From Robiginitomaculum sp. (GTDB taxonomy: Bacteria; Pseudomonadota; Alphaproteobacteria; Caulobacterales; Maricaulaceae), in assembly GCA_015485155.1 (NCBI GenBank), contig WFUF01000019.1, forward strand, positions 1 to 64,000: a stretch of 64,000 nt of DNA. Direction: 5' to 3'. The position numbers were made by a program, and so were the translations under genes. Positions 12,724 to 35,990 of this stretch are shown one piece after another. The stretch's first letter is position 1; the number at the start of each line of letters is the position of its first letter. The notes beneath the pieces were generated by a model. The model did no database searches. It saw only the letters and a list, made by a program, of their open reading frames with translations, and was not told where the DNA came from.

Positions 12724-13260
12724 TTTAATGTCCCCTGATTAAGATTATACGAGCCCGTGCCCGCAATTGCTTTATGTTTTTTACAACCATCGTCAATTCG
12801 CGACCGAACAATGCACAAGCCGTGCTTTTTAAGGCCAACATGCACATTGGCCAGTTTTTAGCTTCATACCCGATAAAAGCAAGAGTAATACCACAGGAAT
12901 TCCTGTGGTATTGTGTTTTGGCAACGGTTGCGAGCTGATTGAGAGAGTTTTTCGGCGCCATTTCACCTTTAAAGGGTGGTTTTAGGCAAAAAATTCCAAA
13001 TTTTCTCTGGTAACGTAAAGTTTACCCAATTCGCGGGTAAATCAGGGCTGTTTCAGCTTGTGGGCGAGGGATTGTGTCTGTGAAAACGTATTCATCTACA
13101 CAATTACCATCTTCTTGTGTTGTCGTGAATAAGCGCGTAATCTGGTCGTTGGATGTTTTTCGTTACGGGGATCTTGATACTAATATATTATTTGAGACCC
13201 CGGCAGACAGTCAGGATTGCCTAACCGGGCTATCGTTTAAACTTTAAGGAATATACAAGC
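12724..13260. other. Intergenic region with two dyad elements
   Basis: About 540 bases between the divergent TonB receptor and copper operon. A 78-codon minus-strand frame at 12725-12961 has no family features. Two inverted repeats stand out: a perfect palindrome at 12887-12912 and TTTACCC-N7-GGGTAAA at 13021-13041. Promoters for both directions should lie here; I could not assign -35/-10 elements with confidence. Confidence 0.6.
12887..12912. promoter_or_regulatory. Perfect 26-base palindrome, candidate operator
   Basis: AATACCACAGGAA is followed directly by its reverse complement, with no loop. A zero-loop palindrome in a divergent promoter region is more like a dimeric repressor site than a terminator. 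No T-run follows. Confidence 0.45.
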
Positions 13261-13863
13261 ATGACTCTTTTCCCATCAAACAATAAAATCACCGCGAACA
13301 AACGCGGACTTGCTGCCGCTTCGTTTGGCGCTGTTGCCGCCATTGCCCTAACGCTGTCGGCGCCTGCAATTGCCGGTCCCGGTGGCCATGGCGATCACGG
13401 CAATATGGAAGGCCATAAAATGAGCGCCCCCAAGTTCTCGTTTGGAGAACCTGCCCCGGACGCCACTCCTGACGTTCGTGTTGAAATGGACGCGCTGGAT
13501 ACTATGCGTTTTAGCCCGGAAACAGTTTCTGTAAAAGCTGGAAGCGTGGTTGAGTTTGTTGTTACCAACAAGGGCCAGATCCCTCACGCATGGTCAGTTG
13601 ATACTATTGAGGGCCAAAAGAAACACGAAGAAGGCATGAAGGACATGCCAATGTCCAATATGATGGGCCATATGGACGACGAACCGAACGGATTTGTACT
13701 AAAGGCCGGTGAAACCAAAAGCCTGATCTGGAAATTCAGCAAAAGCGGCACCTTGCAATTTGCTTGTCACCTGCCCGGACACTTTGATGCCGGCATGCAC
13801 AGCACACTTGAGGTTACCGGTGGTGATCATGATGACAAGGGCAAAAAAGCCCACCAACATTAA
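13261..13863 (+). CDS. Periplasmic cupredoxin (plastocyanin/azurin-like copper protein)
   Basis: 200 residues. The signal peptide runs to about IAG at 38, followed by a His/Met-rich stretch (GGHGDHGNMEGHKM). The C-terminal cupredoxin domain has complete type 1 copper ligands: His109 (IPHAWS), Cys169, His174 and Met179 (CHLPGHFDAGM, the C-x4-H-x4-M loop). A Met-rich insert (MKDMPMSNMMGHM) lies between them. The tail is His-rich. It probably binds or shuttles copper in the periplasm. First gene of the copper cluster, 39 bases before copA; AAGGA lies 11 bases upstream of the ATG. Confidence 0.88.
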   Translation: MTLFPSNNKITANKRGLAAASFGAVAAIALTLSAPAIAGPGGHGDHGNMEGHKMSAPKFSFGEPAPDATPDVRVEMDALDTMRFSPETVSVKAGSVVEFVVTNKGQIPHAWSVDTIEGQKKHEEGMKDMPMSNMMGHMDDEPNGFVLKAGETKSLIWKFSKSGTLQFACHLPGHFDAGMHSTLEVTGGDHDDKGKKAHQH

Positions 13864-13902: not shown

Positions 13903-15795
13903 ATGTTTTCTCGACGACAAATTCTAGGCTCTGCTTCCGCTGGCGCGGCTTTGCTTGCCTCCGGCAATCTAATACCAGCATGGGCGCGCAGCGGCTCAGG
14001 TATCTGGCCACCAGCCGATCCAAGAACCGGCCCGCATGAATTTGATCTTGATATTGCCAAAACCCCGTTTTTTGTTGATGGCCGCGAAGGCTCTGCCGTA
14101 ACCTTAAATGGCGGTGTCCCCGGGCCGATAATGCGCTTCAAGGAAGGTGAAACCGTTACCATTCGGGTTCATAACAAACTTGACGAGACCACGTCCATTC
14201 ACTGGCACGGCATTTTGCTGCCCTTTGAAATGGACGGGGTTCCCGGGGTTTCTTTCCCCGGCATACCAGCGGGAGAAACCTTTACTTACAAATATAAAGT
14301 AGATCAGGCCGGAACCTATTGGTATCACAGCCACTCGGGCCTGCAGGAGCAATTGGGTTGTTATGGCCCGATGATCCTTGACCCGGCGGAACCTGATCCG
14401 GTCGCTTATGATCGCGAGCATGTGCTGGTGTTATCAGACTGGATGTTTGAAAATCCTTACAAGGTATTGGCCAAATTAAAGAAGCAAAGTGACTATCTAA
14501 ATTATCAGCAACGTACTGTTGGAACATTCTTTGAAGATGTGAAGAAAAAAGGCTTTGCTGCTACATGGCGGGATCGGATGTCATGGGGCAATATGCGTAT
14601 GACCCCTACCGATATCGCTGATATTACCGGTCACATATATACCTATATGATTAACGGCCATGGGCCGAGCGATAATTGGACAGGGCTGTTTCGTCCAGGT
14701 GAGCGGGTTCGATTGCGTATTATAAATGCCGCCACCATGAGCTATTTTAACTTCCGTATTCCGGGCCTTGAAATGACCGTGGTTCAGGCCGATGGCCAAA
14801 ATATTGAGCCGGTAACCGTTGATGAAATGCAAATTGCTGTTGCAGAAACCTATGACGTAATTGTGACACCAAAAGATGACCGGGCATATACTGTTTTTGC
14901 CGAGTCCATGGACAGAAGCGGTGCTGCACGAGCTACGCTTGCACCACGTCTGGGTATGAGTGCTGAAATTCCTGATCTGCGTGATCCACCCATGCGTACC
15001 ATGATGGATATGGGTATGGATCATGGCGATATGGATATGGGTGCCATGGACATGAACTCCGGTGAAGTCGATCATAGCAAAATGGATCATGGCGACATGG
15101 ATATGGGTTCCATGGATATGGGATCCGATGAGGTCGATCACAGTAAAATGAACCATGGTGATATGGATATGGATGCTGGTTCTATGGACATGAGTTCCAT
15201 GGATCACAGTAAAATGGGTCATGGCGGCATGGACATGGCCGGAGCCGGGCCGATTGTAGCCCGTCACGGCCCCGATCACCATGGGCCAGGCGCAATATCC
15301 GTTGCCGATGTACAGCGAAACCGTCTGGGCGAGCCGGGAACCGGTTTAAAGAATGTTGGTCACAGAGTGTTAGTGTACAATGATTTGCGTGCCTTAAAGC
15401 CGTACAACCAAAAGGCCCCCGATCGTGAGGTTGAACTACACTTAACCGGGAATATGGAACGCTATATGTGGTCATTTGACGGCAAGAAGTTTTCCGAGGT
15501 CAACAGTCCGATCCGGTTTTCACACAATGAAAGACTGCGGCTTATTCTGGTCAATGACACCATGATGGATCACCCGATCCATTTGCATGGTATGTGGATG
15601 GAATTGGAAAATGGCAATGGTGAGTATCTGCCACGCAAGCATACCATATCTGTAAAGCCCGCAGAGCGGGTTTCATTGCTGGTAACACCGGATGTTCCCG
15701 GACGCTGGGCATTTCATTGCCACCTCTTGTTTCATATGGATATGGGCATGTTCCGGGTTGTTGAAGTTTCACCATATGAGGGAGAAATCTTATGA
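13903..15795 (+). CDS. copA: Copper-resistance multicopper oxidase CopA
   Basis: 630 residues. A twin-arginine signal (SRRQILGSASAGAALLASG) shows export as a folded enzyme. Three cupredoxin domains carry the copper ligands: HWHG (100-103), HSHSG (142-146), HPIHLHG (about 557-563) and HCHLLFHMDMGM (about 605-616). Residues about 367-446 form a Met/Asp/His-rich insertion built of repeated MDHGDMDMG-like units, as in CopA/PcoA, expected to bind cuprous copper. It oxidises Cu(I) to the less toxic Cu(II) in the periplasm. The stop overlaps the copB ATG. Confidence 0.96.
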   Translation: MFSRRQILGSASAGAALLASGNLIPAWARSGSGIWPPADPRTGPHEFDLDIAKTPFFVDGREGSAVTLNGGVPGPIMRFKEGETVTIRVHNKLDETTSIHWHGILLPFEMDGVPGVSFPGIPAGETFTYKYKVDQAGTYWYHSHSGLQEQLGCYGPMILDPAEPDPVAYDREHVLVLSDWMFENPYKVLAKLKKQSDYLNYQQRTVGTFFEDVKKKGFAATWRDRMSWGNMRMTPTDIADITGHIYTYMINGHGPSDNWTGLFRPGERVRLRIINAATMSYFNFRIPGLEMTVVQADGQNIEPVTVDEMQIAVAETYDVIVTPKDDRAYTVFAESMDRSGAARATLAPRLGMSAEIPDLRDPPMRTMMDMGMDHGDMDMGAMDMNSGEVDHSKMDHGDMDMGSMDMGSDEVDHSKMNHGDMDMDAGSMDMSSMDHSKMGHGGMDMAGAGPIVARHGPDHHGPGAISVADVQRNRLGEPGTGLKNVGHRVLVYNDLRALKPYNQKAPDREVELHLTGNMERYMWSFDGKKFSEVNSPIRFSHNERLRLILVNDTMMDHPIHLHGMWMELENGNGEYLPRKHTISVKPAERVSLLVTPDVPGRWAFHCHLLFHMDMGMFRVVEVSPYEGEIL

Positions 15796-16547
15796 ACATT
15801 AGATACCCCTTGCTCTTGGTATCCTTAATGCTGTCTATGACCACTGCGGCTTTTGCTCAGGAATATCCGCCTACCGGATCCCCGGCCTCATGGCCACATC
15901 CATTGGATGATTCAATGACCTTCACCTTCTTTCAGGTTGATCGGGCTGAACTGGCATTTGATAATGGCGAGACCAGCTATCTGATGGATACTCAAGGCTG
16001 GATTGGCACTGATTTGAACAAATTCTGGTTCAAGGTTGAGGCTGATGGTGATTTTAATGGCAGTTTCGGTGAAGCAGAATTGCAGGGGCTCTACAGCCGG
16101 ATGATTTCTTCCTTTTTTGATTTTCAGGTGGGAATTCGCCAGGATATGGGCCCGGGGCTTGATCCAACCACTTATGCAGTAGCAGGAATTCAGGGACTGG
16201 CACCTTACTGGTTCGAGATTGATACTGCGCTTTTTTTAAGTGACAAGGGTGATCTTACCGGTCGGATGGAAGCCGAATACGATGTCCTGTTTACGCAGCG
16301 TCTCATCGGGCAGCCGCGTATGGAGGCCAGTGTCGCCGCGCAGGATGTGGTCAGTCAGGGTATTGGTTCAGGACTTAGCACTGTGGAGTTTGGTTTTCGG
16401 CTTCGGTACGAAATTAAACGTGAATTTGCGCCATATGTCGGTATTGAGTGGAGCAGCGCCGTTGGCAGAACCGCAGATTTTCGTCGTCTTGCAAACGAAC
16501 CGGTAGCAGCAACATCTGTGGTTGCTGGTATTCGGCTGTGGTTTTAG
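15792..16547 (+). CDS. copB: Copper-resistance outer membrane protein CopB
   Basis: 251 residues. A signal peptide ends at about TTAAFAQE and is followed by a beta-barrel of the CopB/PcoB type: DDSMTFTFFQVDRAELAFDNGETSYLMDTQGWIGTDLNKFWFKVEAD, LYSRMISSFFDFQVGIRQDM, and a final strand ending in RLWF. The Met/His-rich N-terminal spacer common in CopB is nearly absent, so this is a short form. ATGA overlap with the copA stop shows coupling. It acts with CopA to keep copper out of or sequestered from the periplasm. Confidence 0.93.
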   Translation: MNIRYPLLLVSLMLSMTTAAFAQEYPPTGSPASWPHPLDDSMTFTFFQVDRAELAFDNGETSYLMDTQGWIGTDLNKFWFKVEADGDFNGSFGEAELQGLYSRMISSFFDFQVGIRQDMGPGLDPTTYAVAGIQGLAPYWFEIDTALFLSDKGDLTGRMEAEYDVLFTQRLIGQPRMEASVAAQDVVSQGIGSGLSTVEFGFRLRYEIKREFAPYVGIEWSSAVGRTADFRRLANEPVAATSVVAGIRLWF

Positions 16548-16613: not shown

Positions 16614-17330
16614 ATGAGTTCTCATGCTGTTACAATCCGCCGCCAGCCATATTTTATCTCTGGCCTGTTTTTTATTATTGCTCTGGTTTTTTGGGCGAGC
16701 GCATCAATTGCCGGCCCTGCGGGTCATGCATCTTCTGAAGATAAGGCTCCAACGGCTCAGTCAGCTGAAACCCTTGATCAAAACGGTACGCAAACTGCTC
16801 TTACCGATGCGGGCGCAACAGTAAATGAGGAGGAGGCCCCTAAGGAACATCCACACTGGGGCAGCTCACCTGACAGTTCAACATTCTCAAAAGTAGCATC
16901 CTATTTTGGCAAATTTCACCCTCTGCTTGTGCACTTTCCCATAGCGCTATTTTTAACCGCTGCTCTGGCGCAATTCCTGTTATTGATAAGTGTAGCCCCA
17001 AACTTTGCCGATACAGTTCGTTTTCTGGTTTGGCTGGCCACTGCTTCAATAGTGGTGGCAGCGGCCATGGGGTGGGGACATGCCGGGCCTCCGGTTGATT
17101 CTGAGGGGCCGGTAATGGTTGTTCATCGTGTCCTTGGAACCAGCATGGTTGTGCTTGCGTTTTTGACTGTCTGGTTTATGGAGCGGGCCAAAAAGAAATC
17201 CGCATCCAAATCAGTTTTTTTGTTTAATGCGCTCTTGTTTACCATGGCATTAAGTGTAGCCGTAAATGGATTTTTGGGCGGGGCATTGGCCCATGGTGGA
17301 TTAAAGCATTTATTGCCCGGTTTTGGTTAA
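16614..17330 (+). CDS. DUF2231 domain membrane protein
   Basis: 238 residues from the ATG at 16614 (AGGA seven bases upstream), not the earlier GTG at 16566. The N-terminus has one hydrophobic segment, followed by a polar linker (about 30-90) and a four-helix DUF2231 domain with KFHPLLVHFPIALFLTAAL, GWGHAGPPVDSEGPVMVVHRVLG and a final HGGLKHLLPGFG. The conserved histidines suggest metal or haem binding, unproven for this family. The position between copB and the sigma-factor module implies a role in copper handling. Confidence 0.8.
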   Translation: MSSHAVTIRRQPYFISGLFFIIALVFWASASIAGPAGHASSEDKAPTAQSAETLDQNGTQTALTDAGATVNEEEAPKEHPHWGSSPDSSTFSKVASYFGKFHPLLVHFPIALFLTAALAQFLLLISVAPNFADTVRFLVWLATASIVVAAAMGWGHAGPPVDSEGPVMVVHRVLGTSMVVLAFLTVWFMERAKKKSASKSVFLFNALLFTMALSVAVNGFLGGALAHGGLKHLLPGFG

Positions 17331-17373
17331 TATGTAAAATAGCCTGTAATTTAGCAAATTTTGGAGTATGCTT

Positions 17374-17832
17374 ATGAAAACCCTGTCATTTATTTTTACT
17401 GTATTTGTTCTGGCAATATTTGGCAGCAATGGTGCCTTTGCTGAGACCGGTACGGATCAGCAATCTGTTACCAGGGTTTTGCAGACCTATTCTGCGGCAA
17501 TCAACAAGGGTGATATGGATGCCATGGGCCGCAGCGTAATGGCCGAAGGAAAAGATTTTACAATCTTTGAAGGCGCAGGCAGCGACACGGGCTGGGCCAG
17601 TTATCGTGACCATCATCTGGCACCTGAATTTGCCAATCCTGATCTGAAGTTTCACAAATTCGAGTTTCAGGAAATACAAAGCACTATTGCCGGTGATTGG
17701 GCCTTTGCAACATTTTCCATTGAAAAATCCTACACCTATAAGGGCAAGGATACTGACAAGATGGGGCGAGGCACCGCCATCTTGAAACGTGTCGATGGAG
17801 TTTGGAAAATTAAACACCTTCATACATCATGA
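17374..17832 (+). CDS. Secreted NTF2/SnoaL-like (DUF4440-type) protein
   Basis: 152 residues from the ATG at 17374 (GGAG 7 bases upstream; the ATG at 17368 is closer to the site and less likely). A signal peptide ends at about GAFAET. The body (VTRVLQTYSAAINKGDMDAMGRSVMAEGKDFTIFEG, then WAFATFSIEKSYTYKGKDTDKMGRGTAILKRVDGVWKIKHLHTS) is the cone-shaped NTF2 fold seen in small periplasmic proteins of metal-resistance clusters. No catalytic residues can be assigned. The stop overlaps the next start (ATGA). Confidence 0.75.
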   Translation: MKTLSFIFTVFVLAIFGSNGAFAETGTDQQSVTRVLQTYSAAINKGDMDAMGRSVMAEGKDFTIFEGAGSDTGWASYRDHHLAPEFANPDLKFHKFEFQEIQSTIAGDWAFATFSIEKSYTYKGKDTDKMGRGTAILKRVDGVWKIKHLHTS

Positions 17833-18104
17833 GCGATAAACTTTCAAAAAATCTGTCCTTGCTATCGAAACAGATAGATGAAGAGCGTCTAACCGGTCTG
17901 GAGGCAAAGGTCTGGGAAACCATCAACCAAAATAAAACTTCTGGCTTTGGTTTTGATAGGCTCATGCTATTGAGAGTTGCCTCCATAGCCCTTGTTCTGT
18001 TTATTGGCGGAGTGGTCGGTGCTGATCAAAAGCACACTGACCCGGTATTGATGGCCTTTTCCAATGCCCCCGTCTACAGCATTATGTCGATGATAAAAAA
18101 CTAA
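17829..18104 (+). CDS. Small membrane protein, probable CnrY-like anti-sigma factor
   Basis: 91 residues: a helical cytoplasmic part (1-44), one transmembrane helix (about 45-65, LMLLRVASIALVLFIGGVVGA) and a short periplasmic tail. No domain is recognisable by eye. Length (CnrY is about 95), topology and place directly before a CnrX-like sensor and an ECF sigma factor match the CnrY-X-H order, where the cytoplasmic N-terminus holds the sigma factor. Assignment rests on context and topology, not on sequence identity. The ATG overlaps the preceding stop. Confidence 0.6.
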   Translation: MSDKLSKNLSLLSKQIDEERLTGLEAKVWETINQNKTSGFGFDRLMLLRVASIALVLFIGGVVGADQKHTDPVLMAFSNAPVYSIMSMIKN

Positions 18105-18119
18105 ACGGGGTTTTTGGGG

Positions 18120-18551
18120 ATGCGCAATACTGTATTGGCTATTTTGCTTAGTCTGGTTGCCGGACTTGCCGGGGTGTGGATAGGTAAATCATTGCTGATT
18201 GCCAATGAGTCTGAGCCACCGGACTTGCACGAGGAAATTCACACATCGCTTAATCTGACTGCAGAGCAATTACGGGAGTTTTATGTTCTTGAGGAATCTT
18301 TTGCCAAGCGCAAGCAAGAACTGGAAAACCGTCTAAAAGCAGCCAATGGGTCATTGGCTGATGCAATTCAAAAAGATCATGAGTTTTCCGAGAAAGTCAC
18401 ACAGGCCGGTGCCGAATATATGGAAGTCCTAAGCGAGCTGCAAAAGGAAACCTTACAGCATATTTTCAAGATGCGCGCTGTATTGACGGCAGATCAGGTT
18501 GAAGAGTTCGATGAAATAGTGATCCGCTCGCTCCATGCCGCAACCAACTGA
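18120..18551 (+). CDS. CnrX-like periplasmic metal sensor (heavy-metal resistance family)
   Basis: 143 residues from the ATG at 18120 (a TTG two codons earlier is unlikely). An N-terminal membrane anchor (about 4-24) precedes an all-helical periplasmic domain. The metal-ligand set of CnrX (His42, His46, Glu63, His119, Met123) is reproduced with identical spacing: His37, His41 (HEEIH), Glu58, His114 and Met118 (HIFKM). It should sense metal and signal through the preceding membrane anti-sigma factor. The 3' end overlaps the sigma-factor gene by 17 bases. Confidence 0.82.
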   Translation: MRNTVLAILLSLVAGLAGVWIGKSLLIANESEPPDLHEEIHTSLNLTAEQLREFYVLEESFAKRKQELENRLKAANGSLADAIQKDHEFSEKVTQAGAEYMEVLSELQKETLQHIFKMRAVLTADQVEEFDEIVIRSLHAATN

Positions 18552-19128
18552 CACTGATGAGCAAAGCGACCGGTCGCTGATACAGCGTGCTGCAGGGCAG
18601 GATGACCATGCTTTTACGCTTTTAATGCGAAAATTTAAGTTACCATTGTATAGATTTGCATTGCGGCATGTGGACGATCCTGATGATGCAGAAGATATAG
18701 TGCAAGACACATTTGTTGCCGCGCACCGTAATCTTGGCCGATACAATCCCAAATATGCAGTATCAACCTGGCTTTACCGGATTACACTGAACAAGTGTCG
18801 TGACTTAGGCCGCAAACGAAAAACCCGCAAATTTTTGCTACGAATGACGAGCAAAATCGAGGACCAGGTTACTAACCTTGAATCTGACGACAACCCGGAG
18901 CAGCAAATGCTGGCCCAAAACGAGCTTGGGCAATTGAGCAAGCAAATTGCCAATTTGCCAGATGCTTTGCGAGCGCCACTGATTTTATGTGTAATTGAAG
19001 AAATGAGTCACGGCGAAGCCGCCAAAATATTAGGGATCAGTGTAAAAGCCGTTGAAACCAGAATTTACCGGGCAAGAAAAACTCTGGGTAAGCGCACCAA
19101 TATGACCGTAAAGGATACGGGACACTGA
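18535..19128 (+). CDS. ECF sigma factor, CnrH-like
   Basis: 197 residues. Region 2 (FTLLMRKFKLPLYRFALRHVDDPDDAEDIVQDTFVAAHRNLGRYNPKYAVSTWLYRITLNKCRD) and region 4 (LPDALRAPLILCVIEEMSHGEAAKILGISVKAVETRIYRARKTL) are complete, with no extra domain. It follows the anti-sigma/sensor pair in the order of cnrYXH and is close to CnrH in length (191). It probably activates the copper cluster when metal is sensed; I could not identify its promoter sequence near 13261 or 17829. Confidence 0.88.
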   Translation: MPQPTDTDEQSDRSLIQRAAGQDDHAFTLLMRKFKLPLYRFALRHVDDPDDAEDIVQDTFVAAHRNLGRYNPKYAVSTWLYRITLNKCRDLGRKRKTRKFLLRMTSKIEDQVTNLESDDNPEQQMLAQNELGQLSKQIANLPDALRAPLILCVIEEMSHGEAAKILGISVKAVETRIYRARKTLGKRTNMTVKDTGH

Positions 19129-19169: not shown

Positions 19170-19350
19170 AGTCCTCAAGTAGCGAAGCGGTAGGACATAA
19201 AAAGAGCTTCCCACTTTTGCTAAAAATGCAAATCTTTATCTGTCGCATTTTTGAACCGCAAAACCGGTTCCCACTTTTGCTAAAAATGCAAATCTTTATC
19301 TGTCGCATTTTTGAACCGCAAAACCGGTTCCCACTTTTGCTAAAAATGCT
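19170..19350 (-). repeat. composite hairpin repeat, copy B, with 60-base tandem duplication
   Basis: On the minus strand, directly after the dctM stop: two full tandem 60-base hairpin units (period exactly 60; unit starts marked by CCCACTTTTG at 19211, 19271 and 19331 on the plus strand), one partial unit, then the TCCTACCGCTTCGCTACTTGAGGA element (about 19172-19196, plus-strand CCTCAAGTAGCGAAGCGG). The two full units are essentially identical. It fills the gap between the convergent sigma-factor and dctM genes. Confidence 0.9.
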
Positions 19351-35035: not shown

Positions 35036-35818
35036 ATGCAAATCGAAGAACAAATGGCTGCAATTGTTACTGGTGGCGCAAGCGGCCTTGGTGAAGCTAC
35101 GGCCAGACTATTGGCCAAGCAAGGAGCAAAAGTTGCCCTGTTTGATCTTAATGAAGAACGAGGGCAACAAATCGCCAGCGAAATCGGTGGCCATTTTGCC
35201 AAAGTAAATGTTGCCGATGAAGCCAGTCTCGATGCAGGTTTTGCTTCGGCCCGTGCCGCCAATGGTCAGGAACGAATTATGGTCAATTGCGCTGGAATTG
35301 GCTGGGCTGAGAAAACCGCAGGGCGCAAACGTAATACTGGCGAGATTGTCTGTCACAGTGTCGATGGCTTCTCCACAGTTATAAACATCAATCTGGTTGG
35401 CACCTTTATGTGCATGAGCAAATCTGCCGCCGGAATGATGAGCCTGGAACCAGTAGATGGAGAAAGCCGGGGCGTCGTAATCAACACTTCCTCTGTGGCT
35501 GCCGTCGATGGTCAGATCGGACAATTGGCCTATAGTGCTTCAAAAGGCGGCATAGTGGCAATGACACTGCCGGCGGCCCGTGATCTGTCCCGTGAGGGCA
35601 TCCGGGTATTGAGCATTCTGCCGGGATTTTTTGAAACCCCTATTTATGACACTTTGCCACCACATGTAAGAACCGCTTTGGAAGCCCATACCGTATTTCC
35701 AGCCCGGTTTGGCCGTGCGGAAGAATATGGCAATTTTGTTCTATCGCTGATTTCCAATGATTACATCAATGGCGAACACATACGTCTGGACGCTGCCGCC
35801 CGCATGCCACCGCGCTAA
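35036..35818 (+). CDS. Short-chain dehydrogenase, HSD17B10-like (3-hydroxyacyl-CoA dehydrogenase type 2)
   Basis: 260 residues. Rossmann motif VTGGASGLGEATARLL, then NVADEAS, NCAGIG, the catalytic serine in VVINTSSVAAVDGQIGQLAYSASKGG with YxxxK (YSASK). The loop AGRKRNTGEIVCHSVDGFSTVININLVGTFMCM and the tail EHIRLDAAARMPPR are characteristic of the type 2 hydroxyacyl-CoA dehydrogenase branch acting in fatty acid or branched-chain oxidation. AAGGG lies upstream of the ATG. Its stop is followed immediately by hairpin repeat copy C. Confidence 0.88.
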   Translation: MQIEEQMAAIVTGGASGLGEATARLLAKQGAKVALFDLNEERGQQIASEIGGHFAKVNVADEASLDAGFASARAANGQERIMVNCAGIGWAEKTAGRKRNTGEIVCHSVDGFSTVININLVGTFMCMSKSAAGMMSLEPVDGESRGVVINTSSVAAVDGQIGQLAYSASKGGIVAMTLPAARDLSREGIRVLSILPGFFETPIYDTLPPHVRTALEAHTVFPARFGRAEEYGNFVLSLISNDYINGEHIRLDAAARMPPR

Positions 35819-35990
35819 AGAGCATTTTTAGCAAAAGTGGTAACCGGTTTTGCGACCAAAAATGCGGTAAACAAAGAGTCTGCATTTTTAGCAAAAGTGG
35901 GAAGCTCTTGCTTGCGCTACCGCCTAGCGGCTATTTTAAGCGCGGGTTTTGCGACCAAAAATGCGACAGGTAAAGATTTAGCGCAAATTC
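35819..35990 (+). repeat. composite hairpin repeat, copy C
   Basis: Starts directly after the SDR stop codon: GCATTTTTAGCAAAAGTGG ... GGTTTTGCGACCAAAAATGC hairpin unit, a second partial GCATTTTTAGCAAAAGTGGG, the TACCGCCTAGCGGCTA element and a final GGTTTTGCGACCAAAAATGCG half unit. The order matches copies A and B read downstream of their genes. The remaining bases to 36206 hold the rpoH promoter region (TATAAT at 36159-36164, no convincing -35) and no gene. Confidence 0.88.

Follow-up and report, generated by a model that had tools for sequence, protein, structure and literature searches.

A CnrYXH-like sigma factor module linked to copper resistance genes in Robiginitomaculum sp.

Introduction

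Which metal does a CnrX-type sensor respond to when the genes that accompany it are copper resistance genes? CnrX is a sensor of nickel and cobalt. An earlier note on a stretch of 64,000 nucleotides from Robiginitomaculum sp. (contig WFUF01000019.1, positions 1 to 64,000; hereafter the window) had described a CnrYXH-like module downstream of genes for a cupredoxin, CopA and CopB, and had left two alternatives, namely that the sensor reads copper with a Ni/Co-type site or that the operon answers to Ni/Co too. Here we describe the module, its promoter and its relatives, and we propose that the locus is probably an autoregulated CnrYXH-type transmembrane sigma switch that controls copper resistance, with periplasmic copper as its signal.

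Results

Eight genes between positions 13261 and 19128 lie on the same (forward) strand and presumably form a single transcript. The upstream part comprises a CopI-like cupredoxin of 200 aa (13261–13863; PF00127, E 1e-10; CopI models, E 3e-27, which is under their cut-off), a CopA/PcoA-type multicopper oxidase of 630 aa (13903–15795; TIGR01480, 827 bits for a cut-off of 479) with an internal Met/His-rich repeat (15016–15176), and a CopB outer-membrane copper resistance protein of 251 aa (15792–16547; PF05275, E 3e-82). The genes for a DUF2231 membrane protein of 238 aa (16614–17330; PF09990, E 2e-13) and an NTF2-like secreted protein of 152 aa (17374–17832; PF13474, E 3e-10) intervene between CopB and the regulatory module. 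The latter consists of the predicted anti-sigma membrane protein Y (91 aa, 17829–18104), recognized by its position, size and hydrophobic segment, the CnrX-type periplasmic metal sensor X (143 aa, 18120–18551), assigned by sequence, ligands and fold, and the CnrH-type extracytoplasmic function (ECF) sigma factor H (197 aa, 18535–19128; PF04542 and PF08281). This order, the sizes of the three proteins and the copper genes upstream are all as the earlier note had described them. The end of the NTF2-like gene overlaps the start of Y by four bases, and H starts 17 bases within the X frame. The length of X given above is counted from an ATG; an alternative in-frame TTG at 18114 would yield 145 aa. 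The sensor is present in one copy in this genome, and a 97% identical counterpart exists in a Robiginitomaculum-related MAG.

The recognisable effector genes of the operon are all copper genes, and these stand at the locus in place of a linked CnrCBA Ni/Co efflux pump, which we did not find there. The absence of RND genes from the neighborhood, also claimed previously, was borne out, as all PF00873 (RND) matches of the genome are located on contigs other than that of the window. The CnrA-type RND motif is absent from the genome's RND pumps, while the CusA-type motif is present.

Two further features of the region were observed. The pair of DUF2231 and NTF2-like genes (16614–17832) is found with the module in numerous genomes, in some of which (L003, L080) no CopA/CopB lies in the vicinity, and a DUF2231 gene adjoins Y-X-H in L003, L080, L097 and others. 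Moreover, a 60-bp unit (TTCCCACTTTTGCTAAAAATGC...GCAAAACCGG) occurs in the window at 19208–19349 (2.4 tandem copies), 515–595 and 35816–35979. With 102 whole or partial matches across the genome, often in short tandem arrays, this unit is a dispersed repeat element.

Among solved structures, X matched CnrX (phmmer E 6e-20) and NccX (E 3e-19), with approximately 40% identity to CnrX over 111 ungapped residues. The five metal ligands of CnrX (H42, H46, E63, H119 and M123) correspond to H37, H41, E58, H114 and M118 of X, which align without gaps over the sensor domain, so that the identical spacing reported in the earlier note is correct. The AlphaFold2 model of X (mean pLDDT 75, below 50 in the membrane segment) comprises two long antiparallel helices (48–85 and 91–121) behind an N-terminal membrane anchor. 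When this model was used in a Foldseek search, the first 15 rows were all CnrX/NccX. The structural alignment with CnrX that the note had called for gave VIA-align Z scores of 11–11.6 over about 110 residues, compared with about 7–8 for ZraP, Spy and CpxP, and chains of the latter three were likewise absent from the results of the sequence searches. Judged by its sequence and predicted fold, X is thus a homolog of CnrX/NccX, and an origin of the sensor from CpxP/ZraP was rejected on both scores. No relatives of the sensor were found in viral contigs. In CnrX, Ni and Co recruit the Met ligand, whereas Zn does not, and signaling depends on this residue (PMC7689651). A structure of CnrX with bound copper, obtained in vitro, also exists according to its title (3epv).

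The best PDB match of H was CnrH (E 3e-28), followed by RpoE-type sigma factors (1e-21), and H and CnrH have in common the region 4 helix SVKAVE.RI.RAR. H ends soon after region 4, and we found no Cys-rich C-terminal tail in it. For Y, profile searches returned no significant family match, and neither profile comparison nor a PDB search detected similarity to CnrY. Its role as an anti-sigma factor is therefore suggested by position and topology. Hence, the designation of the module as CnrYXH-like, which had been based on all three genes, holds by homology for X and H, while Y is an analog of CnrY by position, size and topology; on this understanding, we consider the module type as very likely correct. 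A small ORF with a hydrophobic stretch precedes X in nearly all related loci. Their products combine the motif LE..VW.RI with a membrane segment and a short tail; the latter reads APSTLL for the majority of copper-linked loci and FSNAPVYSI for the window.

Upstream of the operon, we identified a predicted sigma-H promoter, GAGGG-N16-CGTA (-35 and -10 boxes), at 13066–13090 of the forward strand, with a predicted transcription start near 13099. A single match occurs in the window, where 0.12 are expected, and it heads the copper operon; we assign it as a promoter with high confidence. The same dyad was found upstream of Y in 46 of 77 and upstream of CopA in 28 of 61 related sequences, while in shuffles of each set, which served as control, any dyad reached at most 5. 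Most matches begin with T-GAGGG and carry a G before CGTA. Within 1.88 Mb of sequence around the sensors, the pattern [TC]GAGGG-N16/17-CGTA occurred at 294 sites versus 11 for the reversed control, and 101 of the 109 loci contain it. Elsewhere the motif also precedes CopA, CopC and DUF2231 genes. A search of the genome for regulon members, done as a pattern search, yielded with a tighter pattern only one other exact match, located within a 150-aa ORF. The transcription start sites of cnrY and cnrC on pMOL28 have been mapped (PMC9045368), and boxes with a spacer of 17 end 9 nt upstream of both published starts; the -35 box of cnrY reads AAGGG rather than GAGGG. Boxes of the same kind at this distance from mapped starts indicate that the copper modules use the CnrH promoter code. 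Since the window's promoter heads an operon that contains Y-X-H, the module would be autoregulated, provided that the operon is a single transcript. A structured leader RNA between the promoter and the first gene was also considered and found to be unsupported (z -0.39).

To place the locus in its family, we collected sensors by their similarity to X alone. A sensor was present in 72 of 200 genomes of the order, and 79 plasmids also carried one. CopA or CopB was encoded within about 8.5 kb in 70 out of 91 loci, and 7 further loci contained CopC/CopD or a CusA-type pump. Another 10 had a metal P-type ATPase or a CueR-like gene alone, genes that are less copper-specific. Copper-associated genes thus occurred in 87 of the 91 loci, with no copper marker in the other 4. 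The Y-X-H gene order was conserved in related loci. On annotated plasmids, the module adjoins copAB in Blastomonas, Sphingopyxis, Asticcacaulis, Sphingobium and Aurantiacibacter, and in Caulobacter FWC26 it adjoins other copper genes. Loci of the true cnr type, which include a DFGLIIDGAVIIVEN RND pump, occurred on Cupriavidus plasmids, in another genome of the phylum, G449, and in one alphaproteobacterium, G042. The copper wiring that the earlier note had pointed out is therefore real, but it is not special to this locus, as copper linkage is the norm in a large family of the Alphaproteobacteria.

Two further observations came from the collection. In G042, a locus of the true CnrYXH-CBA type for Ni/Co coexists with several copper-linked copies of Y-X-H (L168; L041/L094), and this genome could serve as a within-genome pair for studying specificity and cross-talk. 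In addition, a paralog in which Asp replaces the first His ligand (DHEHM) adjoins a metal P-type ATPase (L058:1636, L060:15416, L063:2746, L084:11380, L086:16687, L090:17650 and L106:8783); the same genomes carry a standard copper-linked copy.

The ligand set HHEHM does not separate copper-linked sensors (79/93) from Ni/Co sensors (4/4). A second pair of residues shows a different distribution: at the positions equivalent to 101 and 104 of the window sensor, a His/Met pair (HxxM) was present in 102 of 111 sensors, or 102 of the 107 outside the Ni/Co group, and Glu and Ala occupy these positions in all four Ni/Co sensors. The non-Ni/Co sensors without HxxM are that of the window (M101, L104) and those of L002, L003, L080 and L097. 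These five form one clade with 100/100 support, distinct from the Ni/Co clade in an unrooted tree. On a tree built without the trait columns, the distribution of HxxM required two changes, and one change sufficed in 0 of 200 bootstrap trees. A Met occupies position 72 in 49 of the 93 copper-linked sensors. If the pairing of E58 with H114/M118 is taken as a guide, this position should face 101/104 across the two long helices of the model. We hypothesize that the relatives possess a second, Met/His copper site that is missing in the window sensor. Separately, a clade comprising L102, L105, L110, L113, L114, L115 and L117 has H-H/Q-E-Y-I/V in place of the ligand set, keeps HxxM and has copper genes nearby; its members may sense through HxxM rather than through the CnrX site.

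Discussion

The proposed switch would operate as follows. With metal absent, H would be retained at the inner membrane by Y, jointly with the periplasmic X. Copper accumulating in the periplasm would bind X at its CnrX-type site (H37, H41, E58, H114, M118), and the resulting change in the shape of X would cause Y to free H, a release that we infer by analogy with CnrYXH. RNA polymerase carrying H would then initiate at GAGGG-N16-CGTA, and the eight-gene transcript would provide the cupredoxin, CopA, CopB and the two accessory proteins as well as additional Y, X and H. That copper is the metal sensed by X appears probable, though we put this lower than we otherwise would because HxxM is missing in the window sensor: as its clade lacks this pair, the argument by analogy with the copper-linked relatives is weaker here.

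The strongest competing explanation to be weighed is that X, like CnrX, still senses Ni/Co, or else several divalent metals, and that induction of the copper genes follows from Ni/Co or is one facet of a general response to metals. The window sensor retains the five CnrX ligands, one of them being the Met that Ni and Co recruit, and it resembles the Ni/Co sensors in being devoid of HxxM. However, the same five ligands occur in most copper-linked sensors, the window clade stands apart from the Ni/Co clade, and neither the recognisable effector genes of the operon, all for copper, nor the genome, with no CnrA-type RND motif, fit this explanation, which we regard as rather improbable. Between the alternatives left by the earlier note, copper is hence favored, with an operon and a promoter that are copper-dedicated.

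Two other explanations are far less likely. X could be a periplasmic chaperone or metal buffer of the CpxP/ZraP/Spy type rather than serving the neighboring sigma factor as its sensor, as its hairpin fold is related to theirs and a weak LTXXQ (CpxP family) Pfam match exists (E 0.0045, under the cut-off); yet the PDB sequence matches were to CnrX/NccX at ≤1e-18, the fold scored clearly higher against CnrX, and X has an N-terminal membrane anchor and a place in a conserved gene order, which leaves this idea with hardly any credit. It is similarly very doubtful that the sigma module neighbors the copper genes by chance, with other targets for H and another regulator for the copper genes. Although CueR-like genes lie near several related loci, the single promoter match of the window heads the copper operon, the only other exact match to the tighter pattern in the genome falls inside an ORF, the motif precedes CopA, CopC and DUF2231 genes elsewhere, and copper linkage recurs across families.

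How does the module compare to systems already described? CnrYXH of Cupriavidus metallidurans pMOL28 and NccYXH have the same gene order, sizes and overlaps, and have in common with the window the five sensor ligands, a CnrH-type sigma factor and the promoter boxes. The differences are the copper genes in place of the CBA efflux pump, the terminal location of the module in its operon, a promoter spacer of 16 instead of 17, and a Y without detectable similarity to CnrY. The module of the window thus would work like CnrYXH but is not a Ni/Co cnr determinant, because copper genes replace CnrCBA and the genome contains no CnrA-type RND motif. Other counterparts are the copper-linked modules of Sphingomonadales and Caulobacterales, such as those of Asticcacaulis excentricus pASTEX02 and Sphingobium chlorophenolicum pSPHCH01, in which Y-X-H likewise adjoins CopA/CopB, the promoter motif is the same and the five ligands are mostly kept. 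Unlike the window clade, these have HxxM at 101/104 and the Y tail APSTLL. In public (PGAP) annotation, the relatives bear the generic label ‘periplasmic heavy metal sensor’. CorE of Myxococcus xanthus is likewise a copper-linked ECF sigma factor, which controls a multicopper oxidase and is named as the copper ECF sigma factor in a survey of marine copper signaling. CorE senses copper via its own Cys-rich C-terminal extension and has no anti-sigma factor, whereas the window encodes a separate periplasmic sensor and an H without such a tail. CpxP, ZraP and Spy, finally, share a related helical hairpin with X, but they differ by a lower fold score, by the absence of a sequence match and by the absence of a linked sigma module. 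While CnrYXH itself is known, the copper-linked branch of CnrX, its promoter code and the HxxM signature are new within the open-access literature that we searched, where we found no description of them; an earlier mention is possible.

Most of the CnrX family, which is known from Ni/Co sensing, seems to be linked to copper, and the common promoter permits the prediction of regulons. We tentatively suggest that most of the family are copper sensors that use a second HxxM site (to which roughly half of the copper-linked members would add Met72) beside the CnrX site, that Ni/Co sensing goes with the absence of this pair, and that the window clade, which independently lacks it, runs a copper operon on a bare CnrX-type site. 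If this possible scheme is true, the window clade would be a natural test of what sets the choice of metal. The HxxM contrast, together with this exceptional clade, makes metal choice by near-identical sites testable with paired proteins.
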